Origin: Pseudoxanthomonas dokdonensis
GTDB taxonomy: Bacteria; Pseudomonadota; Gammaproteobacteria; Xanthomonadales; Xanthomonadaceae
Direction of reading: 5' to 3'
NCBI RefSeq assembly: GCF_001431405.1
Contig: NZ_LDJL01000001.1
Location: forward strand, 62,001-126,000
DNA: 64,000 nucleotides
Part shown: in pieces, positions 2,558 through 64,000 of the stretch
Position numbering within the stretch: position 1 is the stretch's first letter
Layout: every line of letters begins with the position of its first letter
Translations under genes and position numbers: made by a program
Notes under the pieces: model-generated
What the model was told of the DNA's origin: nothing
Seen by the model: the letters and a program-made list of their open reading frames with translations, nothing else
Database searches by the model: none

Positions 2558-4753
<2,196 letters not shown>

Positions 4754-44632: not shown

Positions 44633-47600
44633 TCAGTAGCTGCCGACCACGTTGAGGAACCAGCCCTTGTGGTCGTAATCGAAGTCGGTCAGATCGTCAC
44701 TGAACTGGGTGAAGTTGTAACCCACGCCGAGCCGGAAGTTCTGGCCGATGTCGCGATCCAGGCCCACCAGCCAACCGTCGGTGGTGCCACCATCATCGAC
44801 ATCCAGCCAGCGGTACTCGGCCAGCGCATGCCATTGCTGGCGCAGTTCGTAACGGAGCTGGGCGGCGGCGAAGGTGGTGGCCGAATCGAACCACGCGCCG
44901 GTCCCGCGGCCAAAGCGCACTTCGCCTTCGCGCCGCGCGACCTTGCCCGAAAATTCCCAGTGCTGGTCACGCTTGTAAGTGCCTTCCATCGACAGCACCT
45001 GGGTTTTCTGGTCGTAGTCGTTGCCACCTTCCTGACCCAGCGTGGACAGGTCATACAGATAGGTATAACGCCCGAACCACTGCCAGCGCAGGCTGTTCCA
45101 CGGGCGCCAGGCGAAACCTGCATTGCCTTCGATGAAACGGGCGCTGGCCTGACCATCAATGTTGTCTTCGGTGTCGGCGTAATTCAGGCGCGCGGCAATG
45201 CGGAAGCTCTCGCTGAGCTTGTGCACCAGGCGATTGGTGCTGACCCACTGGTCGCGATCCTCGGCACCGCGGTCACGCCGGTATTCGAGCTTGCTCTGCC
45301 AATCAGTGTCGGCTGAGGTGCGGCCGCCGTTGAGGCTGACCGCGCTGCGATCGACCTGACCGCCGGTGACCGTGGTCAACTCGCCATCCTGCAGGGTGAA
45401 GCCCAGGTTCCAGCCCAGGCCCGGATAGAAGTCCATGCCGAAGGTGTTGGCCAGGCCGGACTGACCGTTGGGATCTTTCAGGTACTGGCTTTCGTTGAAC
45501 AGGTTGACCTGCTGCGACAGGCGCCAGCGCTGGCCCAGCGTCCAGCCGTTCTGGCGGTTGGGATTGAACAGCGAATCGTAGGCGGTGGTGTCGGTGGAGA
45601 AGGTGTAGCTGCCGTACAGAGTGTGGTCCGGCTGCAACCGGTATTCGGCGCTCAGGGTCGCCGCATCACCGCGGTCACCGGTGCTGACTTCACCACCAAT
45701 CGAGGACTGGTCACCAAACAGGTATTTACCGCCGACGGCGACCGCGTTGTTGTCTTCGTAGGCGCCGCCATCATCATCCAGCGTCGCCTGGACCAGGCCA
45801 TACAGTTCCAGCGAGGTGCCGAAACGGTGGTTGTACTTCAGCGCACCCAGCAAGCCGGCGGCGTCGAAGCCATCGCGGCTTTCTTCCACCCGCCGGACTT
45901 CGGCACTGAAGGTGCCGTCATCATTGATCCGCCACTCCATTGTCGCCTGCGCCTGGGTCAGCTCGTCGTTGCCACGCTCGGCCTGGCTGTAGCGGCTGTA
46001 GAGTTTCAGGTTGGGAGTGAAATAACCAAGTACCTCGGCACCGGTTTCGGTGATGTCCTGGCCGCTGTCGTAGCGGGCAATCGAATATCCGGCGCTGCTG
46101 TCGCGCCACCAGGCGCCGGCTGCCCAGTCCTGTTCGGTCCAGCCCAGTTCCTTGAAGTTGGCACGCGCTTCAATCGACTTGGCCTCGCCTTCGCGCGGTC
46201 CCTGCGGGTTGAGCTGGGTGAAACTGAGGCCGCCGTTGTCGGAGAAGAACACCGGCGCACTGGTCGACTCGGTCTGCGCATACTCGGCTTTGACATAGGT
46301 GCCCTTGCCGGCCTGCAGGGTGACGTCGCCGCCAGCCAGAGTGTAGTCCTCGCCAGCGCGGTTTTCATCGACATAGGTCACGCCAACGCCGAGGTGGTCG
46401 CCAAACCAGTGCTTGCCGCGTAAGCCAGCGGTGATTTCATCGTCGTCGAAATCAGTCGGCACCCATTCGTAGTCGACCAGCAGTCGCTGCTCGAAACCAT
46501 CGAGCGGAGTGTCACGGGTCAGCGTGGGAATGTTCTCGCGGGTGATCTGCAGCAGCGGCCGGGTCAGGATGATCCGGCCCTGCAGTTCGTCGATCTCGTA
46601 GTCGGCGCCACGCAACAGGTTGACCCGATTCTCGACCCGACCGGTGGTGGTATCGCGGATCTCCAGCACCACTTGGTCCGAGCCCGGCAACACGTCGGTC
46701 TTGCGCAGGTAATACAGGCTGCCGCCGGTACCGATGAACTCATCATGGCCGGGGGCGGTCTGCGCCTGCGATCCAAACGCACGCAGTTCACTGCCCGGGT
46801 CACCCCAGGCATTGGTCGCCCGCGAGCGCCAGTTCAGTGCCGCGCCGTACAGCGAGCGCACGTACTGCGAGTACTCGGTACCGGTCAGGCCGGTCTCGTA
46901 ATTGCCCCACAAGGCCTGGTTCTTGTCCCAGTCGACGCGCACGTAGAAGCGGCCCATCGTGTCGACATCGCGATAGGTGGTCGAGTCATCGCCATACACC
47001 GGGTAGTACAGATCCGGATCCAGGTGACGGAAAATGTCGGTCGGATAGGCGCTGCCGAAACCGTCGAACAGGTGTTCGAGATCGCGTTCGGTGGTATCGG
47101 CCTGGGCGGTGACCAGATACTTGCCACCGAACTTGGCCTTGCCGTAGAACGCCAGCCGGCCATCGCTGATGACGTCGTCGGCATAGCGCGGGTCAACGTC
47201 GGAGGGATCCACCGAACCGCTGACCTCGTTCTGGGCGATGGTCACGTCGGCAATGGCGACGCCGAAGAAGTACTTGCCGGTGACATCCACGCTGAGGTCG
47301 TGGTGGGCCTCGCCACCACCCTGGCCCTTGATGCCGATATCGAAGTCATGCACGCCGACCGGCACCATGTACTCGGCGACGAACTTGCGTTCGAGATCCA
47401 CCGGATAACTGTCGCCATCGATGGTCAGCGCCGAATTGACCGGCAGGTTGCGACCCTGGATACGGATGCGCGAGCCGTAAATCGGGATGTTCTGCTGGCG
47501 CAGGCCATTGCCGGCAAAAACGTTGTCGAGCAATCGCTGCTGGTCGGCCTGGTCGGCGGTCAGGGCGCTGCCAAAGCTCTTCTCGGTGGCATCGCGCAGA

Positions 47601-48475: not shown

Positions 48476-48478
48476 GGC

Positions 48479-51400
48479 TCAGTCCTCCCCTTGCGGTGCG
48501 ACGGGGTCGACTGGAGCAGCGGGATCATCGCTGGCCTGGACGCTGACTTTTGCACGTAACTCGGGACTCAATCGTTGGGCGATGGCTTCGTACACGGCCT
48601 TGGCGCGACGCATGCCCAGGGCCGCGTTGTACTCACGCGAAGCACGGCGGTCGGCATGGCCGATGATGGCGATGGAGCCACCATTGCTGGCTTCCAGTGC
48701 CGCGGCGATGCTGTCGAGCAGCGCGTTGTAGCGCGGCTTGATGGTGGCCTGGTCGGTTTCGAACAGCAGCGTGCCCAGCAAAGGTCCACCTTCGGCCACG
48801 CCTGCGACCAGGGTGCCGGCGTCATCGGCCTGGGTACGCACGCTGACCGTCAACGCCTGTGCGATCTCCGGCTCGACGATGCCATCCAGCGCGGTCCTGA
48901 CCGCCGAGGCGCGTTCGAACGCCAATGCTTCGGACTCGCCGGTGGCGGTGATGATGACTTCGCCACCGCGATAGCCGCGCACCTGTTCGGCGACCTTTTC
49001 GACAATCGGCAGGTATTCCTGCCTCAGCGCCGCGCTGCCCGGGGTGAACAACACCTCGCCCAGTTCCAGTTCGACCTGCTCGGTGCCGCCATCCATCAGT
49101 GCCTCGGGCAGGCGGATACCGAAGTCGAAGCGGGTCGGCACACCGCCGGTGATACGCCGGACCAGCGGATTGTCGGTGGTGAACTCGGCACCGGCCGGCA
49201 GCGTCACCGGATCCACCTTGAGGATGAAATTGCGACCCCGTGCCGAATCACCGGCGTCGATGCCGACCAGGTGATAGCGACCGTACTGATCGGTTTCCAT
49301 CAACAAGCCTTCGACCGAGGCGATGCGTACGCCCGGGATCCCGCGTTCGTCGATGCCTTCGTTGCGGATCCGGTAATCGACCACGTAACCATCGGCGGTC
49401 TGCGCGACCTGCCGTTCCACCGTCGGTGCGGCGGCGGTCAGGCCCTTGGCGGCATCACCCCGGGTTTCGATGCGGGTGCTGCCATCGGCGGCCATGTAGA
49501 GGCTGACACCCTGATCGCTGGTCAGGACGAAGTCATCGCTGAAGGCCGGCTCGCGCAGGCGCTGGCGGATGACGACTTGGTGAGCCTGTGCCGGATCGGC
49601 CAGCGACTGGCGGCCACTGATATTGCCGACGGCAAGCCCGTGCAGCAGCGGCGAACTGGCGTCGGCCACCGGTTGCGGGCCGTCGCCGGCGTCCATGGTG
49701 GTGGACCCCGGCACGTAGGCCGAGGCGGCGAAGCCACCTTGCACCTTGACCCCGGTCAGCGCCGCACTGTCCTGCCAGCCATCGCCGTCGCGATCGTTGT
49801 AGGTGGTACCGGAAATCAGGCTTTCATCCAGCAACGGGTCGTTGGCCAGCAGCACTTCAGCGGTGGCCACGTTCGAGGCCGGCACGTCGAAGCTGGGGTC
49901 GAAGGCCTGCGCCTGGTTGACCTGCACGCCCGGGCGCACGCCCGCGCCTACCCGCATCAGGTAGACCAGGGTCGCGGTATTGCCGGCGGCGATGTCCAGA
50001 TGTTCGACCCGCAGCGGCGACGAGCCCACCGCGGTGACCGAGTCGTCATCGTCATCGCCCTGCAGCGAACCATCGACGTAAGTGAAGCCCAGCGCCGGGG
50101 TGTCGATCAGGTAGCCATCGACCAGATCGATGTCGCCGACGTTCTCGACCGTCACCGTGTAGCGGACCAGGTCACCGATGTTGACCTCGCGCACGCCGGC
50201 GGTCTTGGTGACCCGCAGCAGCGCCGGTTCGTTCTGTACTTCAATCGCGACCTCCGCCTGCGCGTTGACCGTGACCGGTTCGCTGGCCACCGTGCTCGAA
50301 CCCTGGGCCAGCACGGTATTGACCAGGGTGCCGGAATCGGACCCCGCTTCCTGCTCGGTGATCACATGGTCGTAACTGTCGCAGGTCGCGGTCTGGCCCG
50401 GCGCCAGCGAGGTCGGCGCACAGGTCAGCACGGTCGCGCTGCCGCCCTGGAAGGTGTCGTTGACGGTGACGTCATGCAGGGTCACGTTGCCGGTGTTGGT
50501 GGCATCGACCGAATAGGTCACCACATCGCCGACGTTGCCCTTGCCCGGCGTGGCGTTGTCCACGCTCAGCACCGCGGTCTTGGTGGTGGCAATGGCCGGA
50601 CGCTGGATGACCGGCACGATGTCGGACGGCGTGCAGCGCTCATCAGTGGAACCGGCCGGGCACGCCTCGGGCGGCAGCGGTGGGCCGTCCGGTGGCGTCT
50701 CGGTGGTCACCACCGCGGTATTGAGCACCTGTCCGGCATCGGCGTCGGCCTGGGTGACGGTGTAGGTGCCTTCCAGCACGCAGTCCTCGCCCGGCGCCAG
50801 CAACGCGCAGACCTTGGTGTCCGGCGTGATCATCGTGTCGCTGATGGTCACGTTGGCCAGCGGAATGTTGCCGGTGTTGGTGGTGGTGATGGTGAAGGTC
50901 AGGGTGTCGCCGGTGCTGACTTCGCCATTGCCATCGGCGTCGTCGTTGGCGGTCATGTCCTTCACGGTTTCAACCGACGGTTTGCTGATCGGGTGATCGG
51001 TCGCGCAGGTTTCGCAGACCGGCTCCGGATCACCGCCTGGTGGGTTGCGCGCGGTCACGCTGTTGCCGACCGAGCCGCTGGCGTCGGCATCGACGGTGGC
51101 GGTGTAGGTCAGCGGATAGCTGCCCGGCAGGGTACCCGCCGGCAGCACGCAGACCAGACTGCCGGTGCAGTCGTAATCACCGGCCGAGGTCACGCTGCCG
51201 AAGGTCAGGCCCGGGGTCAGGGTGTCGGTCAGGGTGATGTCCTGGGTGGTGATCGAACCGGACACCACGGTGGTGATGGTGAAGTTGACCGTCTCACCGG
51301 CGTAGACCACGTTGCCACTGGCCGGGTCCGAGATCTTGTTGACCACCGAGGTCGAATCGATGACCGGATGATCGGTATCGCAGACGGTGCAGACCGGGTC

Positions 51401-54400
51401 CGGATCGGTACCCGGATCCTTGCTCGGCACCACGCTGTTGCCAACCGAGCCGGTGGCATCGGCATCGACGGTGGCGGTGTAGACCAGGTCGTAGCTGCCT
51501 GGCACGGTGCCGACCGGCAACGTGCACACCAGCGGATTGGTGGCATTGCAGGTGTAGCTGCCGGCGGTGACCGTGCCCAGGGTCAGGCCGTCGCCCAGGG
51601 TGTCGGTCAGCGTCAGCTCTTCGTGCAGGGCGGCATCTTCGATGGTGGTGGTGACGGTGAACGTCAGCGTGTCGCCCGGTGCGACCTGCTCGCCACTGGC
51701 CGGATCCGAACGCTTGGCGACGCTGATCGATGACGGTGTCAACGCGGTCGGGGTGACCTCGCTGTCGTCGGCGGTCGGATCGGTGATCGTGCCCGGTGCA
51801 TCGCCGGTGGCGGTCGCGGTGTTGGTGACGTTGCCGGCCAGCTCATCGTCATTGGTGATGACGTAGGTATGGGCGACCGCGACGCAGCTGGCAGTCTGGC
51901 CCGGGGCCAGCGTCTGCACGCGGCAGACCAGGCTGGGTAGCAGCGGATCGGCCACGGTGACCGGCGACAGCACCACGTTGCCGGTGTTCTGCATCGAGAA
52001 CGCATAGGTGATGGTGTCGCCGGCATCGCCGGTGATGCCATCGCCATTGGTATCGGCCACGGTGGCCGTCTTGTCCAGCGTCAGCGAGGCGGTCTGCGGC
52101 ACCGGCACGACATTCGGGGTCGAGCACTTGCCATCGGTGCTGTCGCCAGGCGGACAGGCCGGGCTGGTGCTGGTACCGGTGTTCAATATCTGCCCGGCGT
52201 TCACGTCGTCCTGGGTGACCGTGTAGGTACCGGTCAGCACGCAGCTCGCGCCCAAGGCCAGATCGTTGCAGGTGGTGGTCGCCGGAGTGATGCGGTCATC
52301 GCTGACCACCACCGGGTCCAGGGTGATGTTGCCGGTGTTGGTGACGGTAACGGTGTAGGTCAGCGTATCGCCTACGCTGACAGTGCCGCTGCCATCCTGG
52401 TCGGCATTGGAGGCCAGCGCCTTGACCAGGGTCTGATCCGGAGCCTGGGTACCATCGATGGTTTCGCTGTCATCGTTGGACGTGGTGGTGCCATCGCTGG
52501 CAGTGGCGATGTTGGTCACGCTGCCGGCATCCAGATCCGCCTGGGTCACGGTGTACGAGGCGGTACAGGTGATCGAGGCGTTCGGGGCCAGGCCGCCGGC
52601 CGGCAATGCCGGGCAGCTGACCGTGGCAATCCGGTCATCGCTGACCGTGATCGGCGAGGTGACGGTGACGTTGCCGCTGTTGGTGACCACGTACTGGTAA
52701 TCCAGCGTGTCGCCGACCGCCGCGTAGCTGGTCGAAGTGGTCTGCTTGTCCAGCGTCAACGCACGCGCCTGCGGTACCGGCGTCACGTTGGGAGCGCGGC
52801 ACTGGCCTTCGGTGGTATCACCGGCGGCGCAAATCGGGCTGGTGCTGGTGCCGGTGTTCAATATCTGGCCGGCATCCACATCCGCCTGCTGGACCACGTA
52901 GGTGCCGGTCAGTACGCAACTGCCGCCCGGCGCCACGTTGTTGCAGGTGATGGTGTTGGGGGTCAGCAGGACGTCGCCCACGGTGACCGGGTCCAGCGTG
53001 GTGTTGCCGGTGTTGGTCATGGTGACGGTGTAGGTCAGCGTGTCATCCAGGCTGACGGTCCCGCTGCCGTCTTCATCGGCATTGCCGGTTACCGCCTTGG
53101 CCAGGGTCTGGCCCGGCGTCTGGTCGCCAGTAACGGTTTCAGTATCCTGGTTGGAGGTGGTGGTGCCATCGGTGGCAGTGGCGATGTTGACCACGCTGCC
53201 GGCATCGATGTCGGCCTGGGTCACCGTGTAGGAGCCGGTGCAGGTAATCGAGGCATTCGGCGCCAGCCCACCGGCTGGCAATGCCGGGCAGCTGACCGCG
53301 GCAATCCGGTCATCGCTGACCGTGATCGGCACGGTGATGGTGATGTTGCCGCTGTTGGTCACCACGTACTGGTAATCCAGCGTGTCGCCGACCGCCGCAT
53401 AGCTGGTCGAAGTGGTCTGCTTGTCCAGGGTCAGGCCACTAGTCTGGGTGACGGTGACAACGGCGTCGTCATCGGCGCTGGTGACGCCATCACCATCGGG
53501 CTCCTGGCCGCTGGCATTGGCGCTGTTGGTCACGCTGCCTGCATCAATGTCGGCCTGGGTGACGGTATAGGTCGCGGTGCAGGTGGTGCTGGCCTGCGGT
53601 GCCAGGGTCGTGGCCGGGCAAGTGATCGCCAGTGCGCCGCCGGTACCGGAGAACGAAACTTCGTTGATGGTCAGTGCGCTGACCGTAACGTTGCCGCCGT
53701 TGGTCACCGCGAACGAGTAGGTGACCTGCTGGCCGGCGGCGGTGACGGTGGCCGGGCTGACCGTCTTGTCCAGGATCAGGGTCGATACCGGGGCGATATC
53801 GGTTTCCACCGAATCGTCATCGGTCACCGTGGCATCGGTCGGATCCAGGCCTTGGGCGGTCGCATTGTTGGTCACCACGCCGTTGTCGATATCGGCCTGG
53901 GTCAGGGTGTAGCTGGCACTGCCGCAGTTGGCGGTCTGGCCGGGCTCCAGCGTATTGGGGGTACAGGTCAGCCCGCTCGACAGCGGCAGGGTCTCGGCCA
54001 CGGTGATGGTGCGCAGGGTGACGTTGCCCGTGTTCTGTACCGAGAAAGAATAGGTGATGGTGTCGCCGGCATCGGTGACCGACGGCAATGCGCCCTGGGC
54101 GGTAGTCGGCGGATCGGCGGTCTTGGTCAGCTGCAGCGACGGCTGGCGATCAAGGGTGACCACGGCGGTGTCGGGATCGGAGCTGATGCGTGAGCTGCCC
54201 GGCGGGGTACCCTGCGCGGTCGCACTGTTGGTGACCGTACCAGCGTTCATTTCCGCCGCGGTGATGGTATGCACGCCGGTACAGGTGGTCTGCGAATCCG
54301 GCGGCGATGTCGCCGGGATATCCGCCTTGTCGCAGGTTGCGGGCGCGTCCAGGATCGGATCGGTGATGCCGATCGCGGTCAGGGTGACATTGCCGGTATT

Positions 54401-57400
54401 GGTGACCAGGAAGGTATAGGGAATGGTGTCACCGGCATCGGTGATGGTCGCATCCAGGCCGAGGTTGACCGAGGGTGTGCCGGCGGTCTTGTCGATGGTC
54501 AATGACTGCGACTGCGGCGCGACCGTCACATCGACGCTGTCGCTGGTGTTGCCGCCGGTCCAGGTCGCCTGCGCGGTGTTCTCGATCAAGCCATCGCCAC
54601 CGCCACGCGTGTCGAAGTCCTCCTGGGTCGCGGTGTAGGTACCCGTACATTCGAAATCATCGCCCGGCGCCAATGCCGCAATCGGCATGGCCGGGGTACA
54701 GGTCAGCGTCGCCAGCAGGCTGTCGGTGACGTTGACATTCTGCAGTGTGACGTTGCCATTGTTGACGCCGGTGATGGTGTAGTTGATCGGATCACCGGGG
54801 TTGTCGACCTGGCTGACGTCGGCGACCTTGTCGAAGCCCAGCACCGGGTTCTGGTTGATCGGAATCTGCAGGATATCGGTGGCGTTGAGGGTCACGCTGC
54901 CGTTGGTGTCGGTTGCCTGGCCGGTGGCGCTGGCGGTGTTGTCCAGCGTGCCGCCGGCGTCGACCTGCGCCTGGGTGACCACCCGCGAGGTGCCGGTGCA
55001 GATCTGGTCGGCGCCGGAACCGGCACCGCCAAAGCTCACGCTGGCCTGCGGTTGCAGCGTCGCCACGGTCGGGCAGGACAGGCCCAGGGTCGGATCCGAC
55101 AGGCTCAGGTCGGTGATGCTGACGTTGCCGTTATTGGTGACCGTAAAGGTGTAATTGATCGTCCCCGGCGCGGTCACCTGGGTGACATCAGCGGTCTTTT
55201 CCAACGCCATCGCCGGCAGCCGCACCGGCAGGTTGACCTCGTTCTCGTCACTGACCGGCGCGATGGTGCCGTCACCCGGCACTTCGGCGGTGACCGTGGC
55301 CACGTTGTCGATCTGGCCGTCGCCCGGCTGCGCGTCGCTGCTGCCGGTGTCGATATCGTTCTGGGTGACGGTATAGGTATTGCCCGCGGTGCAGGTAAAG
55401 GTCGCGGTCGCGCCGGGGGCCAGCGAGGCAATCGGCGTGCATACCAAAGCTGGCAGCAACGGGTCGCTGACCTGCAAGTCATTCAGGGTGACGTTGCCCA
55501 GATTCTGGATCTGGAACGAGTAGACGATGGTGTCGCCAGCGGCATTGACCGAGCCGACGTTGGAGGTCTTGGTCAATACCATCTGCGGCGCGCGCGCCGG
55601 CAGATCGACTGACCAGCTGTCGCTGTCGGTTACGGTCACCAGGGTACCGTTGTCGTCGTACTCGGCAGTGCCGGTCACGGTATTGACCAGCTCGGTGCTT
55701 TCGTCGGTCGGATTGCCCTGGTTATCGATATCACCCTGCTGTACGGCGTAGGTATTGCCGGTACAGCTGAACGTGGCTGAAGCCCCCGGCGCCAGGCTTG
55801 CGATCGGCTCGCAGGACAGGCCCGCGCCCAGCAGCGTGTCGTTGGTGATCTGCAGGTTGCTCAGGGTCCGGCTGGAGGGGTTGTTGATGGTGAAGGTGTA
55901 GGTGACGACTTCACCGACGCCGGTGACGAAGGTCTTGTCGGCTGTTTTCACCAGTTCCGCCGAGCCAGGGCCCGGGTTCACGTCCACCGCTGCCGAATCA
56001 TCATCGTCGATGGTGTCGCCGTCGTAGTCACCGGCGGCGGTGGCGGTATTGACGATGTCGGTACCGGCATTGATCTGCGCCTGGCTGACGGTCAGCTGCG
56101 CGGTACAGGTGACGGTATCGCCAGGCGGCATGTCGACCGGCAACGTGTCGGCGCCACAGGTGATCGACCCCAGACCCGGCAGCGGATCGGTCAGATTGAC
56201 GCCGGTGAGGGTGACGTTGCCTGGATTGGTGATGACGAAGGTGTAGGTGACCACCTCGCCGGCCGTGGTCACCGTGCCGGGTGACACCGACTTGTCCAGA
56301 TTGATCAGCGGCTGCGCCACATCGATCGGCTGGCTGCCGGTGGCGTCCTCGGATGCACTGCCGCCATTGCTGCCGGTGGCGTCCATGGTAGCGGTGTTGT
56401 CGATGTCGATGTCGCCGCCACCCTGGTTGTCGATGTCTTCCTGGGTGATGACGTAACCGGTGCCGGTGCAGACCACGTCGGCCGGTGGCGCGACGGGACC
56501 GAACGCCACGGTCGCCCCCGGCGGGATCGGCGCGGTGCTTGCACAGCTGAGCCCCGGCAATAACGGGTCGGTGATGGTGACGGTGTCGATGGAGCTGTTG
56601 CCGGTATTGGTCACCGTGAAGCTGTAGTTGATCGTCTCGCCGACGCTGCCGGTGCCATTGCCATTGCTGTCGCTCAGCGTCGGCGTCTTGGTGAAGCTCG
56701 CCGAAAACGTCTGGCTGGGCAAGTTGACGTCGGTCGAGTCGGTATCGGTGACCGGGGTGCCGTCGTCGGTGGTGCCGTCGGCGGTCGCGTCGTTGTGGAT
56801 CACACCGTCGTCGGTGCCGTCACCACTGCCGTTACGGTCGATGTCAGCCTGGGTCACCGTGTAGGTGCCGGAGCAGCTGATGCTGGCCCCCACCGCCAGC
56901 GTGGCCACCGGCACGGCCGGGGTACAGGTGAAGTTGCCGGCCAGCAACGGGTCGTTGACGGTCACGTTGTTGAGCGGCACGTTACCGGTGTTCTGCGCGG
57001 TCACGGTGTAGGGAATCTGCTCGCCCGCCGTGGTCACGCTGGTGGTGGTGGTGCTCTTGTCCAGGGTCAGTTCCGGACGGATGACAAAGGTATTGCTGTA
57101 GGTACAGGTGATGATGTTGCCGATGTCCGCCGCACTTATCACCAGACCATTGCTGGGGTCGGTGTCGCTGCCATCGCAGGTCAGCGTGGTATCGAAGTCG
57201 CCAGCCGAACCGCTGCTGAAGCTCTCTCCACCCAGGCTGCCGGATTCTTCAATGAACACTTCCACCGGGCCTACCGACGTGGTGGTCGGGAAGGTGGAGG
57301 AGAACGCAGGCGCGTTGTTGATGAACCCGGTCGTAGCCGGGATGTCGACGCTGGCACCGGGGCTGGGACCACCCCAGACCTTCTGCACGACCAGCTGCGC

Positions 57401-60010
57401 GCTCTTGCGATCGTTGGTCCAGGTGCAGGTGATGGGGCCGTCATCCGGCCCGACCGTCAGGGTGCCTCCGACCCCGCCGCCACCAACGACAAAGCCACTG
57501 GTATTGGTACAGCTGATGTCGACATCGTAGTTGTTGGAGGTGCCGTTGTTGAACGACTCCAGCATGCTGATCTGGTCACCGATGAAGACGGTCTGCGCCG
57601 GTCCGGTGACGGTTTGGGTGGCACTACCGTCGGCAATCGACGTCAGCGATGTCAGCCCGCCAGCCGGTCGATCCGCTGCGATGGCGATGGAATCGCCGGG
57701 AATCGCATTCAACCAGGTCTTCTGTATTGTCAGCGTGGTCGTGTCGCGGCTGTTGGTGTAGGTACAGACGATGTTGCTGCCGACGTCGGCCGGCTCGATG
57801 GTCAGCACATTGCTGGCTTTGCCATCGGTGCCGGCCAGGGCGCCGCCGCTGCAGGTCAGGCCGACCGTATAGTTGGCCAGCGCGCCGCCGGACATGGTTT
57901 CAGCCGGCAGCGTGGCCTGCTCGCCGGCAAACACGGTGACCGCCGGGCCGCTGTTGTCGCCGACCGGAGCGGTGGTGGTGAATGCAGGCGTGTTGTTGAC
58001 CAGGCCGGTGGTGGCGCCGATCTGCGCCTGGTCACCGGTGGCGCTGCTGCCGTCCCATGCCTTGGCCAGCTGCAGGGTTGCCGACTGGCGGGTATTGGTG
58101 AAGGTACAGACGATGTTGCTGTCACCCGGGGCCACGGTCAGGGTATCGCCGGACAGGCCGCTGGTGCCGGAACACGCCAGCGCGCTGGAATAGTTGGCCT
58201 CGTTGCCGGGCGTGGCAAACGCTTCAGCCAGCGAGATTGTTTCACCGGCGTAGACGACAGTCGGCGCTGCCGACGCATCGGTTTCGTTGGCGCTGTCGGC
58301 GGTTGAATCCAGGTTGATCACACCACTGGTGCTGCCGCTGGCACTGATCGCAACGGTTTCACCCACGGCGGCATTGACCCAGGTCTTCTGCAGGGTCAGG
58401 TTGGCCGAAATGCGCTGATTGGTATACGTACAGACAATGTCGGTATCGGCCGGATTGATGGTCAGCGTATTGCCGCTGAGCGGCGTGGTATTGCCGGTAC
58501 AGGCCAGGGTCGAGGTGTAGTCGGCCTGGTTGGCCAGGGTTTCCACGATCTGGCCCGATTCGCCGGCAAACACCACGACCGGGGTGCCGGTGGTGGCGTT
58601 GTCGCCGCTGGCATCGGCAGTCGATACGCCGCTGCTGGCATTGTTGCCGAAACCGGTGCTGGTGACGGTGGTGCTGTCACCCGGCAGCGCGTCCACCCAT
58701 TGCTTGATCAGGGTCAGGTTGGCCTGGCTGCGGACGTTGAGGAAGGTACAGCTGACGCCACTGTCGCTGGGCATCGTAAAGCTGCCGGACGGACCGGTGC
58801 CGCTCACGGTGACCGCCACCCCATCCAGATCGCGCGTACAGCTCAGCGTGGTGTCGTAGTTGGCCGCCGCGCCGGTGCCGAAGGCTTCCGTTACGGTGAC
58901 CGTGCTGCCGCCGACCGCGTTGGCGGTGGCCACGGTGGTGGTCGCCGGCGCGGTGGACGTACCCGCCGTGATGTCGATAACCTCCGCCGCGTCACCGGCG
59001 ATCGCCAGCGATACCGTGTCACCGGCGGCGGCATCGGTCCAGGTCTTGTCCAGCGATACCGCGCGCGCCACCGGATTGCTGGTGCTGCACGAAACCGGGC
59101 AGGCATCGCCACCGGTGACATTGTTGCCCACCGAGGCGCCTGCGTTGGCATTAACGGTCGCGTCATAGCTGATGACGTAATCACCCACCGCGGTACCGGT
59201 CGGCACGGTACAGGTAACCACCTGGCCAGCCTGGCTGCATTCGGCCGGCAGGGTGCCGACGGTCAAGCCGGCGTCGATGGTATCGGTCAATACAATCGGT
59301 TCGGTGGTCGCGGTATTGGCGATGGTCGCCGTCAGCGTATAGGTAATGGCGTCGCCGATCGCCACGGCGGTGCCGCTGGCCGGGCTGGCGCTCTTTGCGA
59401 TGCTGCTGGTCGAGGCCACCACGTCGACATCGGTGGCGGTGTTGTCGGCGGTGTTGTTGTCGGCGGTGGCCGCGCTCACCGTGACCGTATTGGTCAGGTC
59501 ACCGGTCGCGCCGGCGGCAATGGATGCGGTCACCACGTAGGTCAGCACGCCGCCACTGGGCAGCGTCGGTACGGTCTGGTTGATACTGCCAGTGCCACTG
59601 GCCGCCGGACAGGTCGCACCGCCCGATGCGGTACAGGTCCAGCCAGTGAAGGTCGCCGCCACCGGGGTGGTCGGCTCGGGATCGGCGATGACCACGTCGG
59701 TGGCTGCCGCCGGGCCATTGTTGGTGACCACAATCGTGTAACTGGTGGTCGAACCGGGCACATAGGAATCGGCGCCGTCATCCTTGCTGACCGCCAGATC
59801 CGCCAGCGGCTCGACCTGGACAGTCGCGGTCGAGCTGTTGTTGCTGGTATCGGCATCGACGATGCCCGCCGGCAACGCGACCACGGCGGTGTTGTCGACC
59901 TGTTCCTGCGCCCACGCCATGGGCAGGACCACCGAAGTGGCCATCAATAGAACCGCCAGACGTGAAATCCTACGGGATACCGACGTCAGTTTATGCAGGT
60001 TCAACATCAT
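48479..60010 (-). CDS. Giant DUF11/DUF7507-type repeat protein with tandem C-terminal OmpA-like domains
   Basis: Exported 3843-residue protein. Order: signal peptide (LAVLLMATSVVLPMAWAQ); DUF11 domains (about 45-320); six SpaA/prealbumin-like repeats of about 100 residues (320-1000; each starts LxxxKxW and ends VCTYTN-like); some 17 DUF7507-type repeats (about 1000 to 3200) ending in variants of YTVTQADIDAG, each with a conserved cysteine pair; a long DUF11-like domain (LLRVTKTAGVREVNIGDLV); a beta region (SLISGTTYNDRDGDGWQDS); a degenerate OmpA-like domain (about 3646-3725); and a canonical one (about 3745-3815, with IGHADRRASREYNAALGMRRAKAV). It is acidic and Thr/Asp/Gly-rich. Probably a peptidoglycan-anchored surface stalk. 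AAGGG precedes two adjacent ATGs (60010 or 60007). Coupled to the barrel gene downstream. Confidence 0.9.
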   Translation of the reverse strand: MMLNLHKLTSVSRRISRLAVLLMATSVVLPMAWAQEQVDNTAVVALPAGIVDADTSNNSSTATVQVEPLADLAVSKDDGADSYVPGSTTSYTIVVTNNGPAAATDVVIADPEPTTPVAATFTGWTCTASGGATCPAASGTGSINQTVPTLPSGGVLTYVVTASIAAGATGDLTNTVTVSAATADNNTADNTATDVDVVASTSSIAKSASPASGTAVAIGDAITYTLTATIANTATTEPIVLTDTIDAGLTVGTLPAECSQAGQVVTCTVPTGTAVGDYVISYDATVNANAGASVGNNVTGGDACPVSCSTSNPVARAVSLDKTWTDAAAGDTVSLAIAGDAAEVIDITAGTSTAPATTTVATANAVGGSTVTVTEAFGTGAAANYDTTLSCTRDLDGVAVTVSGTGPSGSFTMPSDSGVSCTFLNVRSQANLTLIKQWVDALPGDSTTVTSTGFGNNASSGVSTADASGDNATTGTPVVVFAGESGQIVETLANQADYTSTLACTGNTTPLSGNTLTINPADTDIVCTYTNQRISANLTLQKTWVNAAVGETVAISASGSTSGVINLDSTADSANETDASAAPTVVYAGETISLAEAFATPGNEANYSSALACSGTSGLSGDTLTVAPGDSNIVCTFTNTRQSATLQLAKAWDGSSATGDQAQIGATTGLVNNTPAFTTTAPVGDNSGPAVTVFAGEQATLPAETMSGGALANYTVGLTCSGGALAGTDGKASNVLTIEPADVGSNIVCTYTNSRDTTTLTIQKTWLNAIPGDSIAIAADRPAGGLTSLTSIADGSATQTVTGPAQTVFIGDQISMLESFNNGTSNNYDVDISCTNTSGFVVGGGGVGGTLTVGPDDGPITCTWTNDRKSAQLVVQKVWGGPSPGASVDIPATTGFINNAPAFSSTFPTTTSVGPVEVFIEESGSLGGESFSSGSAGDFDTTLTCDGSDTDPSNGLVISAADIGNIITCTYSNTFVIRPELTLDKSTTTTSVTTAGEQIPYTVTAQNTGNVPLNNVTVNDPLLAGNFTCTPAVPVATLAVGASISCSGTYTVTQADIDRNGSGDGTDDGVIHNDATADGTTDDGTPVTDTDSTDVNLPSQTFSASFTKTPTLSDSNGNGTGSVGETINYSFTVTNTGNSSIDTVTITDPLLPGLSCASTAPIPPGATVAFGPVAPPADVVCTGTGYVITQEDIDNQGGGDIDIDNTATMDATGSNGGSASEDATGSQPIDVAQPLINLDKSVSPGTVTTAGEVVTYTFVITNPGNVTLTGVNLTDPLPGLGSITCGADTLPVDMPPGDTVTCTAQLTVSQAQINAGTDIVNTATAAGDYDGDTIDDDDSAAVDVNPGPGSAELVKTADKTFVTGVGEVVTYTFTINNPSSRTLSNLQITNDTLLGAGLSCEPIASLAPGASATFSCTGNTYAVQQGDIDNQGNPTDESTELVNTVTGTAEYDDNGTLVTVTDSDSWSVDLPARAPQMVLTKTSNVGSVNAAGDTIVYSFQIQNLGNVTLNDLQVSDPLLPALVCTPIASLAPGATATFTCTAGNTYTVTQNDIDTGSSDAQPGDGQIDNVATVTAEVPGDGTIAPVSDENEVNLPVRLPAMALEKTADVTQVTAPGTINYTFTVTNNGNVSITDLSLSDPTLGLSCPTVATLQPQASVSFGGAGSGADQICTGTSRVVTQAQVDAGGTLDNTASATGQATDTNGSVTLNATDILQIPINQNPVLGFDKVADVSQVDNPGDPINYTITGVNNGNVTLQNVNVTDSLLATLTCTPAMPIAALAPGDDFECTGTYTATQEDFDTRGGGDGLIENTAQATWTGGNTSDSVDVTVAPQSQSLTIDKTAGTPSVNLGLDATITDAGDTIPYTFLVTNTGNVTLTAIGITDPILDAPATCDKADIPATSPPDSQTTCTGVHTITAAEMNAGTVTNSATAQGTPPGSSRISSDPDTAVVTLDRQPSLQLTKTADPPTTAQGALPSVTDAGDTITYSFSVQNTGNVTLRTITVAETLPLSSGLTCTPNTLEPGQTANCGSASYTLTQADIDNGVVTNNATAQGLDPTDATVTDDDSVETDIAPVSTLILDKTVSPATVTAAGQQVTYSFAVTNGGNVTVSALTINEVSFSGTGGALAITCPATTLAPQASTTCTATYTVTQADIDAGSVTNSANASGQEPDGDGVTSADDDAVVTVTQTSGLTLDKQTTSTSYAAVGDTLDYQYVVTNSGNITITVPITVSDDRIAAVSCPALPAGGLAPNASITCTGSYTVTQADIDAGSVVNIATATDGTTTSNQDTETVTGDQTPGQTLAKAVTGNADEDGSGTVSLDDTLTYTVTMTNTGNTTLDPVTVGDVLLTPNTITCNNVAPGGSCVLTGTYVVQQADVDAGQILNTGTSTSPICAAGDTTEGQCRAPNVTPVPQARALTLDKQTTSTSYAAVGDTLDYQYVVTNSGNVTVTSPITVSDDRIATVSCPALPAGGLAPNASITCTASYTVTQADLDAGSVTNIATASDGTTTSNDDSETIDGTQAPDQTLVKALASNADQDGSGTVSVGDTLTYTVTVTNTGNITLDPVVVSDDRITPATTTCNDLALGASCVLTGTYTVTQDDVNAGQILNTGTSTSPACPPGDSTDGKCSTPNVVPVPQTASLTLDKTATVADTNGDGITGDAGDTITYAFSMQNTGNVVLSPVTVADPLLPSLVCRVQTLAPGQTASCVAVAHTYVITNDDELAGNVTNTATATGDAPGTITDPTADDSEVTPTALTPSSISVAKRSDPASGEQVAPGDTLTFTVTTTIEDAALHEELTLTDTLGDGLTLGTVTAGSYTCNATNPLVCTLPVGTVPGSYDLVYTATVDADATGSVGNSVVPSKDPGTDPDPVCTVCDTDHPVIDSTSVVNKISDPASGNVVYAGETVNFTITTVVSGSITTQDITLTDTLTPGLTFGSVTSAGDYDCTGSLVCVLPAGTLPGSYPLTYTATVDADASGSVGNSVTARNPPGGDPEPVCETCATDHPISKPSVETVKDMTANDDADGNGEVSTGDTLTFTITTTNTGNIPLANVTISDTMITPDTKVCALLAPGEDCVLEGTYTVTQADADAGQVLNTAVVTTETPPDGPPLPPEACPAGSTDERCTPSDIVPVIQRPAIATTKTAVLSVDNATPGKGNVGDVVTYSVDATNTGNVTLHDVTVNDTFQGGSATVLTCAPTSLAPGQTATCDSYDHVITEQEAGSDSGTLVNTVLAQGSSTVASEPVTVNAQAEVAIEVQNEPALLRVTKTAGVREVNIGDLVRYTVTVENVGDIDLVDGYLIDTPALGFTYVDGSLQGDDDDDSVTAVGSSPLRVEHLDIAAGNTATLVYLMRVGAGVRPGVQVNQAQAFDPSFDVPASNVATAEVLLANDPLLDESLISGTTYNDRDGDGWQDSAALTGVKVQGGFAASAYVPGSTTMDAGDGPQPVADASSPLLHGLAVGNISGRQSLADPAQAHQVVIRQRLREPAFSDDFVLTSDQGVSLYMAADGSTRIETRGDAAKGLTAAAPTVERQVAQTADGYVVDYRIRNEGIDERGIPGVRIASVEGLLMETDQYGRYHLVGIDAGDSARGRNFILKVDPVTLPAGAEFTTDNPLVRRITGGVPTRFDFGIRLPEALMDGGTEQVELELGEVLFTPGSAALRQEYLPIVEKVAEQVRGYRGGEVIITATGESEALAFERASAVRTALDGIVEPEIAQALTVSVRTQADDAGTLVAGVAEGGPLLGTLLFETDQATIKPRYNALLDSIAAALEASNGGSIAIIGHADRRASREYNAALGMRRAKAVYEAIAQRLSPELRAKVSVQASDDPAAPVDPVAPQGED
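52086..53435 (-). repeat. 675-bp tandem duplication inside the giant gene
   Basis: Two adjacent 675-nt segments (53435-52761 and 52760-52086) each encode a 225-residue two-domain unit beginning LTLDKQTTSTSYAAVGDTLD and ending TPVPQ- or VPVPQ-like. They align end to end without gaps by eye and are far closer to each other than to other repeats, so this is the most recent expansion of the stalk. A second, older pair of related units lies at about 51000-51730. Confidence 0.75.
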
Positions 60011-60765
60011 CCTTGGACCCTTTCTGGTTTTTTTATCGTGGCGCTGACCTGCCCCGATCTGTACATGACCGCCATCAATTCCGGCAGCAACCCGATATCA
60101 GGTTCTGGCCGACAGCAGCTTGTGGGAGGGTTTTCCGTTCATCCCGGCGTGCGTCCGCGGAGGATTGACGCCATTGCCATTCACGCCTGCCGGATTGGTT
60201 CCGGAAGTGTGAACTACCTGCGTCGAGCGGTTACGTGAAGACCGCGGTGCGAACAACAACAACGGATTGGCCAGATTCCATCCCCCAAAAGAAAACAAAC
60301 TTTCCTGTTGCCAACGTTACGTGTGTCCAACTGCAGCTGACAGCACTCCGGCTGCATTCAGTCCTGATGCGACCTGGTAAGAATTGTGAATTATCTCGCA
60401 GCGCGTCCTTGCTACCTGAACGGAGTTGATATGATTACGTTAAACCGAGCATAACACTTGAATGGTGATTTTCAAGCCGGGCCCACGGCCGTCAGCATCG
60501 ACCGGCAAACAGCGCGGCGTGCCTCGGCGCGGCACCTGATGGCCCTGTCCCGCAGCCTGGCAAACAACGGCATTCGCCAGTCGACACACCACGAACAGAC
60601 AGCGCGCGTCATGTTAATGAAGCGCCGGCCGCAGGGTCGTCACGACCGGACATTTGTGGACGGGCGTGCTAGCTTTGCCCACACCAAACGCCTTTGGCGA
60701 TATCAACGCTATTCATCCATTAGCGGATTAATAATGTGATTAGCGTAACGTCAGAGGAGGCATCA
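60011..60765. promoter_or_regulatory. 755-nt divergent intergenic region (giant gene / sigma factor gene)
   Basis: No gene is supported. It must contain the promoters of the giant-barrel operon (leftward) and the sigma-kinase operon (rightward). It is clearly more AT-rich than its surroundings, notably at 60285-60310, 60375-60470 and 60700-60750. Two direct copies of GTTACGTG occur (60230-60237 and 60316-60323), with related TTACGTT near 60436. I could not identify confident -35/-10 elements; an ECF promoter recognised by the adjacent sigma factor may be hidden here. Confidence 0.5.
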
Positions 60766-61434
60766 ATGGCCAGACAGGATTTTCCGAAGGAGACCATGGG
60801 CGCATCGGACAGCTCGGCGTTTGACGCGACAGGCAATGACGCCGTCCTGGGTACGGTCACCCGCCTGCTGGTCGACGCGGATGCCGGCGACAAGGATGTG
60901 TGGGGAAAGATTTACGGGTTGCTGTACCAGGACCTGCATCGGATTGCCCGCTCCCACGTCCGCCAGCAACGCAAAAGCGCCATCTCGCCAACCTCACTGG
61001 TCAGCGAGACCTGGCTGCGCCTGGCCCGCACTGAAGTCGCCGCTGAAAGCCGCGCGCATCTGGTGTCGCTGATCGCCCGGGCCATGCGCTACGTATTGAT
61101 TGACGAAACCCGACGGTTGTTGCGCAGCAAGCGCGGCGGCGACCTGCAGTTCGTCTCACTGGAAGAACACCACGACCCGGTCAACGATCCGCAGCTGGAG
61201 CAGCTGCTGGCGCTGGACAAGGCGCTGGATGCGCTGGCCGGTGTCGACGAAAGGCTCGCCAAGATGGTCGAGCTGCGTTATTTCGGCGGTCTGGACGTGA
61301 AGGAAATAGCCGACGTGCTCAAGGTCACCGAGCGCACCGTGCGACGCGACTGGCGCAAGGCACGTGCGTTCCTTTATTCGCAACTGGGTAGCGATGACGG
61401 CGGGGCGCTGGAGGACCTGAATGCAGAGCCCTGA
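60766..61434 (+). CDS. ECF sigma factor, TIGR02999/ECF43-like
   Basis: RNA polymerase sigma-70-family factor, 222 residues. Region 2 spans about residues 45-115 (LYQDLHRIARSHVRQQRKSA, SPTSLVSETWLRLAR, AMRYVLIDETRR); region 4 spans about 150-205 (LDALAGVDERLAKMVELRYFGGLDVKEIADVLKVTERTVRRDWRKAR). In region 2.2 the acidic residues that normally contact RNA polymerase are replaced by T76-S77. In ECF43 factors of Xanthomonas (EcfK/PknS) and Vibrio (EcfP/PknT) such a threonine must be phosphorylated by the partner kinase for activity. The start at 60766 has a perfect AGAGGAGG 5 nt upstream. Its 3' end overlaps the kinase gene by 14 nt. No anti-sigma gene is present. Confidence 0.9.
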   Translation: MARQDFPKETMGASDSSAFDATGNDAVLGTVTRLLVDADAGDKDVWGKIYGLLYQDLHRIARSHVRQQRKSAISPTSLVSETWLRLARTEVAAESRAHLVSLIARAMRYVLIDETRRLLRSKRGGDLQFVSLEEHHDPVNDPQLEQLLALDKALDALAGVDERLAKMVELRYFGGLDVKEIADVLKVTERTVRRDWRKARAFLYSQLGSDDGGALEDLNAEP

Positions 61435-64000
61435 ACAGCTTGCGCTCGCGCTGTTCGATGACTTCGTTGATCTGTCACCCAAGGCCCGCGGCAAAGCGCT
61501 GGAAAAACTGCGGCAGGAAAATCCGCGGGTCCACGAGTTGCTGGTGGTGCTGCTGGCGGCCGACGAAGAATCCCACGTCCTCGACGAGCTGCCACTGGAC
61601 AGCCTGGCGCGGGCCACGCTGGAGCCCGACGCCGACGATGTCGCCCAGCAGATGCAGGAGCATCAGGCACGGGTCGGGACCCGGGTAGGCGCCTGGGACC
61701 TGCACGAGATTCTGGGCGTCGGCGGCATGGGCGCGGTCTATCTGGCCCAGCGCGCGGACGGCCATTACGATCAGGTGGCCGCGGTGAAATGCCTGCGCCG
61801 CGACCTGGCCTCGCCGGCGCTGGTGTCGGCCTTCCGCAACGAACGCAACCTGCTGGCACGGCTCAATCACTCGTTCATCGTGCCGATGCTCGACGGTGGC
61901 GTGGATGAGCACGGCAGCCCGTGGTTCGCCATGCAGCAGGTCGAAGGGCTGCCGATTACCGAATGGTGCGACCAGCAGAAGCTCTCGATCAGCCAGCGTA
62001 TCGAATTGTTCATCCAGGCCTGTGACGCGATCAGTTATGCCCACAGCCAGATGATCGTGCACCAGGACATCAAGCCATCCAATCTGATGGTCAACGTCCG
62101 CGGCCGCCCCAAGCTGCTGGATTTCGGCCTGTCGGCGCTGCTCAGCGAAAGCAGCGACGAGAACCGGCGTATTGCCTTTTCCAGTGGCTACTCGGCCCCG
62201 GAAATCCTCGACGGCTCGCCCCCCAGCGCGGCGATGGACATCTATTCGCTGGGCGTGGTGCTGTATCAGCTGCTGTGCGCCGATTGGCCGCGGCGGATGC
62301 GTGCGTCCGACATGCTGGTGCCAATGGCCCGGCAGGAACGGGCACTCTCACCCAGCGAACGTGCGTTGAAGGCCAGTGTCGAAGTCGCCCGGGCCAGGCA
62401 ACGGCGCAGCCCGGAAGCGCTGAGCAAGGCGTTGGCCGGTGATCTCGATGCCATCTGCCTGAAATGCGTGGCGACCAATCCCGAGGAACGCTACGCCTCG
62501 GTGCGCGATCTGCAGTTCGATCTGCGCGCCTATCTGGCTTTCCAGCCAATCAGCATCCGCGGCGGTACCCGCTATCGGCTTGGCCGCGCGCTGCGTCGCA
62601 ACGCACAGCTGCTGACATTGAGTGGAGCCGTGCTGGTGTCGGCCATCGCCGGCCTCGGATTGACCCTGTGGCAATCACAACGGGCCGAGCGCGAGGCTCA
62701 TTCGGCCCAGGTCATCAACCGGCTGTTCGAGGAAACGCTGGGCTCGGCCGCACTTGCCGGGGTTGGCGCCAACCAGGTCAACTCGCGCAGTCTGCTGGAT
62801 GAAACCGAACAACGCCTGCGCGCGCTGCCAGCCGATGAAGCAGACAGCGCGGTGATCCTGCAGCGCGGTCTGGTGGCCCTGGCCAAGGGCTACGCCGCCA
62901 TCGGCGAGTACGCGCATGCGACGGTGCTGGCCAGTGAAGCACGCGAACTGGGCAATGATGATCCGCTGCAGTACGCACGCAACGCCGGCACCCTGGCCAC
63001 CCTGCTCAATCTGCAAGGCAACTATGCACAGGCGGAGACCATGGCCAGGTCGGCGCTGAAAGAGTTGCAGGACAACGCCTCGATGCAGAGCCAGGCCGAA
63101 CAGGTCGCGCTGCAGTCCAGCATCGCCAGCGCGCGCTGGGGCCAGGGCGACAAGCAGACCGCCTTCGACATCATCAACCAGGCGCTGGGCCAGGCGCGCC
63201 ACGTCGGTCCCGACGCCCAGGCGCAACTGCTGATCCTGCGGGGTTCGTGGAACGCGGCACTGTTGCAGTTACATACCGCCGAAAAGGATCTGCAGCAGGC
63301 GGTGGCGCTGAGCCAGGGTCAATATCCGGAAACGTATTATTCGGCCTGCGAAGAACTGGCCAACCTGTATCGCACCATGTTGCGCGTGGATGATGCCGAC
63401 CGCATTGCGCGGATCCTGGTCGAGCAACGCTCCAGCTTCCTCGGCATGAACCATCCGGAAACCGGCCGCGCCTGGCTGGAGCTGGCCCACATCCAGCAGG
63501 TGCAGGGCGATTGGCAGGACGCCACGCAATCACTGGACAATGCCGAACGGATCCTGCGGGCCAGCCTGGGTAGTCACAGTCCGGAACTGGTCGGGGTGTT
63601 GATGGCCCGGTCCACCGAGTCGGTGGTTCTCTACAACGACCGCGAGTTGGCCGTCAGCCAGGCGCGCCAGGCCGCCTTCCTCGCCAGGAAGGCTCATGGA
63701 CCGGCGCACCTGACGACAATCCGGGCAGAGAGCAACCTGGCGGTGAAGTTGACCTTCAACAGCCGGGGCGGGGATGCGGACCGGAGCAAGCATCTGCTTG
63801 AAGCTGAAAAACTGTTCAAGGACATTTTCCAGCGCGCCCAGGCCAACAACGTGCCTACCCCGTCGGATCGGCTCATCTATGCGGTTGCCCTGCTCAACAG
63901 CGGACGCGTGGATGAATCCGAGCAGCAGATTGATCTGGCCGAACCGATGATCCGCAACTACTACGGCAACGGTCACAGCCTGTGGCAGTACCTGCGGCTG
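61421..64000 (+). CDS. Transmembrane Ser/Thr protein kinase with extracytoplasmic TPR-like region (3' end outside window)
   Basis: PknB/PknS-type kinase, 860 codons visible and still open. Order: N-terminal helical part (1-90); glycine loop GVGGMGAVY (99-107); K123 (AAVKCL); catalytic loop H214-Q-D-I-K218-P-S-N (HQD in place of HRD); D234-F-G; activation-segment GYSAPEIL in the APE position; one membrane helix at about 398-417 (LLTLSGAVLVSAIAGLGLTLW); then a long helical, TPR-like extracytoplasmic region with repeated A/L-rich helix pairs. Starts inside the end of the sigma-factor gene (14-nt overlap), so the two are coupled. It presumably senses an envelope signal and phosphorylates the sigma factor. 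Truncated only by the window edge. Confidence 0.93.
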   Translation, partial: MQSPEQLALALFDDFVDLSPKARGKALEKLRQENPRVHELLVVLLAADEESHVLDELPLDSLARATLEPDADDVAQQMQEHQARVGTRVGAWDLHEILGVGGMGAVYLAQRADGHYDQVAAVKCLRRDLASPALVSAFRNERNLLARLNHSFIVPMLDGGVDEHGSPWFAMQQVEGLPITEWCDQQKLSISQRIELFIQACDAISYAHSQMIVHQDIKPSNLMVNVRGRPKLLDFGLSALLSESSDENRRIAFSSGYSAPEILDGSPPSAAMDIYSLGVVLYQLLCADWPRRMRASDMLVPMARQERALSPSERALKASVEVARARQRRSPEALSKALAGDLDAICLKCVATNPEERYASVRDLQFDLRAYLAFQPISIRGGTRYRLGRALRRNAQLLTLSGAVLVSAIAGLGLTLWQSQRAEREAHSAQVINRLFEETLGSAALAGVGANQVNSRSLLDETEQRLRALPADEADSAVILQRGLVALAKGYAAIGEYAHATVLASEARELGNDDPLQYARNAGTLATLLNLQGNYAQAETMARSALKELQDNASMQSQAEQVALQSSIASARWGQGDKQTAFDIINQALGQARHVGPDAQAQLLILRGSWNAALLQLHTAEKDLQQAVALSQGQYPETYYSACEELANLYRTMLRVDDADRIARILVEQRSSFLGMNHPETGRAWLELAHIQQVQGDWQDATQSLDNAERILRASLGSHSPELVGVLMARSTESVVLYNDRELAVSQARQAAFLARKAHGPAHLTTIRAESNLAVKLTFNSRGGDADRSKHLLEAEKLFKDIFQRAQANNVPTPSDRLIYAVALLNSGRVDESEQQIDLAEPMIRNYYGNGHSLWQYLRL

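Follow-up and report, generated by a model that had tools for sequence, protein, structure and literature searches.

A giant OmpA-anchored protein and its putative outer-membrane barrel partner: a near-obligate gene pair with an ECF43-like sigma factor and kinase alongside it in Pseudoxanthomonas dokdonensis

In a 64,000-nucleotide stretch (hereafter the window), positions 62001-126000 of its contig in the 3.55 Mb genome of Pseudoxanthomonas dokdonensis, we found a giant fibre protein encoded immediately next to a putative outer-membrane barrel protein, and established that the two are a near-obligate pair, i.e., one unit that recurs in distant bacteria. An ECF43-like sigma factor and a membrane kinase are encoded divergently from this pair; they stand outside the general giant-barrel module and are a local addition to it. 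We put the probability of the whole account, a giant-barrel surface-fibre module whose operon is driven in this lineage by a divergently encoded, kinase-switched sigma factor, at roughly 55%.

The locus and its giant-barrel pair

The pair lies on the reverse strand, where the ORF list gives the barrel partner (1280 residues) at 44633-48475 and the giant (3843 residues) at 48479-60010, with a gap of 3 nt between them. Beyond an intergenic region of 755 nt (60011..60765), within which both promoters are expected, the forward strand carries the sigma factor (60766..61434, 222 residues) and a Hanks-type Ser/Thr kinase (61421..64000). The kinase gene overlaps the end of the sigma gene by 14 nt and runs past the window end for another 306 nt, making a 961-residue protein. 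The longest sigma ORF begins at 60736, but by eye a good ribosome site goes with a start at 60766, from which the 222 residues and the 755-nt region follow. An earlier, sequence-only reading of this DNA had placed these four genes here, with the giant and barrel divergent from the sigma factor and kinase, and re-derivation of the ORFs showed them to be real at these positions.

The giant begins with a signal peptide (by eye) and continues as a long repeat stalk, in which Pfam finds 17 DUF7507 and 8 DUF11 stretches (both families may match the same repeat). It holds 66 cysteines, mostly one pair per repeat (by eye), and ends with a conserved C-terminal block followed by an OmpA domain (~residues 3745-3843, at 48482..48778 on the reverse strand; Pfam PF00691 at 3749-3832), confirming the OmpA anchor and paired cysteines that had been read from the sequence. 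When this domain was aligned to Pal/OmpA structures, its GHxD and RRA positions were found to be kept; we take these residues, which align with those of Pal, to be peptidoglycan-binding. Just before it there is apparently a second, degenerate OmpA-like stretch (~3636-3742; in relatives, a single stretch matches both of these segments). Of 18 aligned repeats, 15 have Asp and 14 have Asn in columns that could belong to an isopeptide Lys-Asp-Asn triad, the Lys column being cut from many of the repeats. Complete giants of the genus have stalks of ~1400-4200 residues (one broken frame excluded). Among the best 80 of at least 566 loci with a barrel relative (see below), the repeats closest to those of the window giant are in Stenotrophomonas sp. 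PS02289 (53% identity over 2328 aa).

DUF11 and DUF7507 have been renamed CLIPPER and CLIPPER_2, and the available part of the account describes them as Ig-like stalk domains, often with an isopeptide bond and partly with disulfides (PMC12617251). Judged by its domain content, the giant is of a known kind, a predicted OmpA-anchored fibrillar adhesin with a CLIPPER (DUF11) stalk. We had also considered type 11 secretion as relevant to DUF11, and dropped it: the accessible text of PMC12282271 mentions DUF11 merely in passing. An OmpA end of the peptidoglycan-binding kind, together with a partner resembling an outer-membrane protein, would also suit a spacer within the periplasm that reaches from the peptidoglycan to the outer membrane. 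However, ~30 Ig-size domains should, by our estimate, span roughly 100 nm or more, far beyond the periplasm, and CLIPPER stalks are described as extracellular in the part of PMC12617251 available, leaving the spacer only a very slight chance.

The partner of the giant consists of a signal peptide (by eye), a variable linker, a conserved N-terminal domain (~130-280) and a large C-terminal part that closes with a final Tyr. We take this C-terminal part to be a putative outer-membrane barrel, on the strength of the C-terminal aromatic residue, the database labels of its relatives and weak barrel-family matches in distant members. The window protein itself has no Pfam or NCBIfam match at E 0.001. 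Moreover, a profile built from 54 barrel members matched no solved structure and so gives no means of separating exporter from gate, plug or receptor. A strand count from hydropathy alternation was attempted and abandoned, since its 60 peaks over 1151 residues were unusable. We could not find a published description of this barrel partner in the open-access literature searched.

Several relatives of the barrel are publicly annotated as TonB-dependent receptors, in keeping with a nutrient receptor or porin for which the giant would serve as a tether or bait-holder. Yet TonB plug and barrel domains are absent from the window barrel (Pfam, NCBIfam) and from five scanned relatives, and stalks as long as those of the genus would make an odd tether; we regard a receptor or porin as improbable. 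The P. dokdonensis genome also encodes a distant relative of the barrel (26% identity across 315 aa; Big_1 matches it weakly), located ~3 kb from a 1544-aa trimeric autotransporter of the YadA type; no giant was seen beside this relative.

Pairing, fusion and the mobile anchor

We searched 61 related genomes, 37 of the same genus and 24 of other genera, for the barrel and for the C-terminal block of the giant. Barrel relatives were present in 31 of the 61, all of the same genus and one of them with a distant type only; the main barrel type was found in 30/37 genomes of the genus versus 0/24 of the others. From these 24 both giant and barrel were absent, weak OmpA-only matches aside. Within Pseudoxanthomonas, 43 of 45 giants have a same-strand barrel within 400 nt on their 3' side. 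Another has its barrel at 411 nt and was counted as direct, because the matched block stops short of the end of the giant. In the last (G026:C11:689715-701237) the barrel lies 5', the sole reversed order that we saw. Conversely, 45 of the 46 barrels of the genus have a giant, the 46th being at a contig end. The claim that the two are partners is thereby upheld: 44 of 45 giants directly precede a barrel on its 5' side, and the remaining one lies on the 3' side.

A wider scan of genome contigs found at least 566 barrel relatives. The 80 loci that we examined are the best of these by likeness to a Vibrio member, and hence not a fair sample; they represent Vibrionaceae, Xanthomonadales, Kangiella, Comamonas, Variovorax, campylobacters, fusobacteria, some Nitrospirae and Myxococcales bins, and others. 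Among these best 80 of at least 566, a giant is adjacent to the barrel in 69 (L214 included), the giant C-terminal block is fused to the barrel in 9, and 2 lie at contig edges, i.e., the giant is adjacent or fused in 78 of 78 judgeable loci. Among the Pseudoxanthomonas loci, one subfamily (L056-L059, L075-L077, L080 and L081) carries a third gene of the DUF11 type, ~640-750 aa in length, just 5' of the giant.

Barrel relatives also occur in 24 plasmid records. Ten plasmid regions were inspected, 8 of which have a protein of the DUF11, SdrD or OmpA family annotated directly 5' of the barrel; a Vibrio record among the ten is without annotation. The exception to the pairing is a Paracoccus plasmid, in which merely a 612-nt gene, preceded by transposases, lies 5' of the barrel relative. 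On a plasmid of the alphaproteobacterium Croceibacterium atlanticum (L032), a barrel 67% identical to that of the window adjoins a giant of the OmpA family, a sign that the pair may have moved by horizontal transfer.

Along the fused proteins, the giant block is followed by one or more OmpA-like domains, and the barrel protein comes last. Of the nine frames, only L209 has a complete 5' end and the other eight are truncated there, so that the stalk is seen in some only; DUF11 or other Ig-like domains were found in all four fused proteins scanned (L152, L167, L209 and, weakly, L203).

The OmpA anchor changes its place. Using an OmpA profile of our own on the best 80 of at least 566 loci, we located it on the giant in 45, while 16 loci encode it in a separate gene 3' of the barrel and 8 within the fused chain; there was no call in 11, which include the two contig edges and L214. 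Split by arrangement, 7 of the 69 loci with an adjacent giant and 1 of the 9 with a fused one gave no OmpA match to this profile. The separate genes (L135-L150) all belong to Vibrionaceae and lie just 3' of the barrel, and 14 of these 16 encode two OmpA domains. On an Eleftheria plasmid, the OmpA domain is found at the N-terminus of the barrel protein itself. Furthermore, two fused proteins (L192 and L209) have an extra OmpA-like stretch, with weak scores of 5e-5 and 0.004, inside the barrel protein at a point equivalent to about residues 280-290 of the window barrel. This insertion suggests that the junction at ~280-290 faces the periplasm, and it may mark the edge of the barrel N-terminal domain. 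The fusions and the moves of the anchor point strongly to a joint role of fibre, barrel and anchor, and by their arrangement the three look like one unit.

As to what the barrel does in such a unit, it could be an outer-membrane docking ring or plug, the fibre crossing the membrane by another route. Its lack of homology to known exporters (Pfam, NCBIfam and a structure-profile search) would agree with this, and an anchor placed on the barrel protein, as in Eleftheria, or on a third protein, as in Vibrionaceae, is what one would expect of a holding complex. Nevertheless, in 9 of the best 80 loci a single chain holds the giant C-terminal block and ends with the barrel, which is the order of an autotransporter. 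Given these fused chains in classical-autotransporter order, we favour export in cis, and think docking or plugging unlikely as the role of the barrel.

The sigma factor and kinase next to the pair

The sigma factor scores over the cut-off for PF07638 (Pfam) and TIGR02999 (NCBIfam), in agreement with an ECF fold made of regions 2 and 4. Its sigma2.2 motif is SPTS, without Asp and with Thr76 (codon 60991-60993) at the position of the ECF43 phospho-threonine, a position that we took from the available parts of PMC8999054 and PMC13147305. As described there, ECF43 factors do not have the acidic motif DAED, and phosphorylation of a Thr at that place activates them. We therefore call the window sigma factor ECF43-like, a sequence-based assignment that draws on its fold, the adjacent Hanks kinase and the loss of DAED with Thr at the third position; the phospho-switch signature of kinase-activated ECF43 factors, expected from the sequence-only reading, is present in it. 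The Thr is likewise kept and both Asp lost in 14 of 14 sigma factors of 59-62% identity (all SPTS), and in the more distant ones of L103 and L262. In contrast, two ECF loci of the P. dokdonensis genome itself (L084 and L087, the 2 readable of six tried) retain Asp at position 4. The kinase matches Pkinase and TPR models; by eye it has a single hydrophobic segment, at about residue 400, with the TPR region after it. It is of the non-RD type (HQDIKP).

In a midpoint-rooted tree, the kinases separate into two clades (support 100/99): clade A, with the window kinase, that of L103, 13 barrel-linked kinases and 14 others, and clade B, with 20 kinases of the same genus hand-picked from a longer list. 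The catalytic motif is HQD in 27 of the 29 clade-A kinases and HLD in one, with no match found in L103, versus HRD in 20 of 20 in clade B. A matching split appears in the sigma tree (support 99/99), whose bootstrap had not settled; the window and L103 kinases and the L103 and L262 sigma factors sit on long branches, and their placement is unsure. Clade-A sigma factors carry S-P-T-[SV] in 18 of 20 rows (L261 has SATS, and no motif was read in L260), and those of clade B carry D-x-T in most rows. Near the sigma factors of 59-62% identity, 9 of 14 loci (L089-L095, L097 and L100) hold a short ORF, of 82-119 aa in seven and 158 and 275 aa in two, that matches the N-terminal part of the window kinase only and may encode a stand-alone sigma-contacting piece.

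The idea that all four genes form one conserved system did not hold: giant-barrel pairs mostly occur without the sigma factor and kinase, an outcome that the earlier reading itself had named as refuting it. The genus loci L036-L081 comprise 43 giants of at least 900 aa, 7 of which are cut at the 5' end by contig ends, and in none of the 35 other giants with a readable 5' side did we find a sigma factor and kinase of the window type 5' of the giant. Similarly, when sigma relatives were placed at E values up to 1e-20 in the 36 genomes behind 37 named loci, none was near the barrel on the barrel contig, as judged from coordinates or, for five unclear cases, from the length of the contig. Of the co-occurrence proposed for related genomes, then, the giant-barrel pairing stood and the sigma factor and kinase fell away as general members, though their link to fibre genes recurs.

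It recurs in two other places. In the Pseudoxanthomonas genome G022 (L103, L222), a sigma factor (46% identity) and a kinase (32%, catalytic part) are divergent, over ~460 nt, from a fibre cluster that encodes a SpaA/SdrD/DUF11 protein of 2225 aa and an OmpA protein, together with a barrel that is only 24% identical. In Lysobacter maris (L262), a sigma factor (43%) and two kinases are divergent from a window-like giant N-terminus that is cut by the contig end; another contig of this species (L161) has a giant C-terminus with a barrel, and our guess is that the two are one locus. Moreover, a related kinase is found within 10 kb 3' of the barrel in 14 Pseudoxanthomonas relatives. In 11 of these it is convergent with the barrel and within 300 nt of it, and in the other 3 it lies on the same side at a distance of 5.5 to 9.4 kb, in a stretch that also holds DUF11-type genes. 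The same 14 genomes carry the sigma factor of 59-62% identity, at a different place from the barrel-linked kinase. We rejected these species as independent cases of linkage and count them as one event, since 13 of their kinases form a single clade in the tree, as common descent would give.

Surface-protein genes also accompany the kinases of one clade. Of 26 clade-A loci, 14 have DUF11/SpaA-type genes in the fetched stretch (17 with the giant-barrel pair itself included), as against none of 20 clade-B loci. In this comparison the window and L103 are omitted from clade A, the training set of the surface-gene profiles consisted of the window and clade-A loci, the loci are related, and two of the clade-B stretches are cut by contig ends. 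In three clade-A sigma-kinase loci of other genera (L259-L261), no giant was found nearby.

It could be, then, that the sigma factor and kinase are a mere neighbour that controls other genes, in an island where surface-protein genes and regulators gather. Most giant-barrel pairs that we saw are without them, the sigma factor is elsewhere in the 14 species with a barrel-linked kinase, and a search for a promoter motif common to the window and L. maris intergenic regions found nothing beyond chance, with 18 matches compared with 6 to 24 in six shuffles. Even so, the divergent layout appears again with a barrel of just 24% identity and in Lysobacter, and the contrast between clades A and B (17/26 versus 0/20), for all the relatedness of the loci and the clade-A training of the profiles, also speaks against chance proximity. 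Weighing these, we find a mere neighbour unlikely, if less so than the other alternatives considered here, and regulation of the giant-barrel operon by the sigma factor and kinase likely.

Short elements and RNAs were also sought. Rfam gave no match at the gathering score in 7 loci, the window stretch having a single sub-threshold microRNA match that we take as chance. A 29-nt element (G021:C19:2787-2815; L225-L238) occurs once per genome in 14 of 38 genus genomes, namely the 14 with the barrel-linked kinase, in 13 of them exactly and in 1 with one mismatch; none of the other 24 genus genomes has it at up to 2 mismatches. It lies just upstream of the giant start wherever this start is readable, in frame with the giant in some and with a stop between them in L045 (by eye), and is a candidate leader RNA, leader peptide or promoter.

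Proposed mechanism and comparison with known systems

In the model that we favour, giant and barrel would be exported by Sec, on signal peptides recognized by eye, and the barrel would insert into the outer membrane. The N-terminal CLIPPER stalk of the giant would then go out through or beside the barrel and stand as a long fibre braced by disulfides and probably isopeptide bonds. The C-terminal block would be held at the barrel, with the OmpA domain staying in the periplasm, bound to peptidoglycan. This is the simplest topology that we can infer: the fibre would be external, the anchor periplasmic, and the barrel the point at which the chain crosses. In the lineage of this genome, the kinase would sense an envelope signal via its TPR region and phosphorylate the sigma factor on Thr76 of SPTS; the sigma factor, once active, would transcribe the divergent giant-barrel operon. 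We base this proposed switch on the likeness to ECF43 systems, namely Thr76 within SPTS and TPR repeats after the membrane segment, which recall the TPR-rich part of PknS.

The kind of giant and the kind of sigma factor and kinase (ECF43) are both already known, and the barrel partner is the part that we could not find in print. To our knowledge, it is not settled how Gram-negative bacteria bring OmpA-anchored fibrillar adhesins to their surface; the barrel is a concrete candidate for this export question and is open to genetic test. The link with the sigma factor and kinase, if true, would extend the known targets of kinase-activated sigma factors to surface fibres.

Among ECF43 systems, the window sigma factor and kinase resemble EcfK/PknS of Xanthomonas citri and EcfP/PknT of Vibrio parahaemolyticus as described in the available parts of PMC13147305 and PMC8999054: sigma factor and membrane kinase are neighbours, DAED is lost and the phospho-position is Thr. 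The window kinase moreover has a TPR-type sensor like that of PknS, whose periplasmic part is TPR-rich (PMC13147305, PMC8999054). By the same partial accounts, it differs from these systems in being non-RD (HQD), in a sigma motif of SPTS as opposed to QTTA, STTA or QATE, and in having a fibre operon as its neighbour, versus a T6SS or polymyxin regulon in the known ones (PMC13147305, PMC8999054).

Among CLIPPER adhesins, the giant is comparable to B9T28_05395 of Acinetobacter silvestris, a Gram-negative, OmpA-anchored member, with which it shares the signal peptide, the long cysteine-bearing DUF11/DUF7507 stalk and the C-terminal OmpA domain (PMC12617251 and PMC10952558, as far as available). 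Neither a barrel partner nor a sigma factor and kinase are named for adhesins of this type in the available parts of these accounts. The window giant has no known N-terminal adhesive domain among its Pfam matches; it may carry one of a new type, and such a domain may not be needed in every member.

Type V secretion offers a further comparison. Classical autotransporters are one chain, with the passenger first and the barrel last, while in two-partner secretion passenger and barrel are split. The nine fused relatives share the single, barrel-last chain of the former, and the split genes of the window recall the latter. The window pair has no autotransporter domain in Pfam, its passenger and barrel being separate genes, and no TPS domain or POTRA/FhaC-type transporter in Pfam or NCBIfam. 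The window barrel is, in addition, larger than those of type V systems and without a match to their families, and the passenger carries an OmpA anchor. It is tentatively, and at less than even odds, that we propose the barrel as founder of an unnamed class: an autotransporter-like device, split or sometimes fused, for the export and anchoring of OmpA-tail-anchored CLIPPER giants, which would be the export route of many such adhesins and, in some Xanthomonadales, would be switched by its own clade of phospho-activated sigma factors and non-RD kinases.

Inverse autotransporters (intimin and invasin) combine a barrel, a fibre of Ig domains and a periplasmic peptidoglycan-binding domain, LysM. The giant-barrel system has the same three parts, but in the opposite order, with the fibre N-terminal, in separate genes, and with OmpA in place of LysM.
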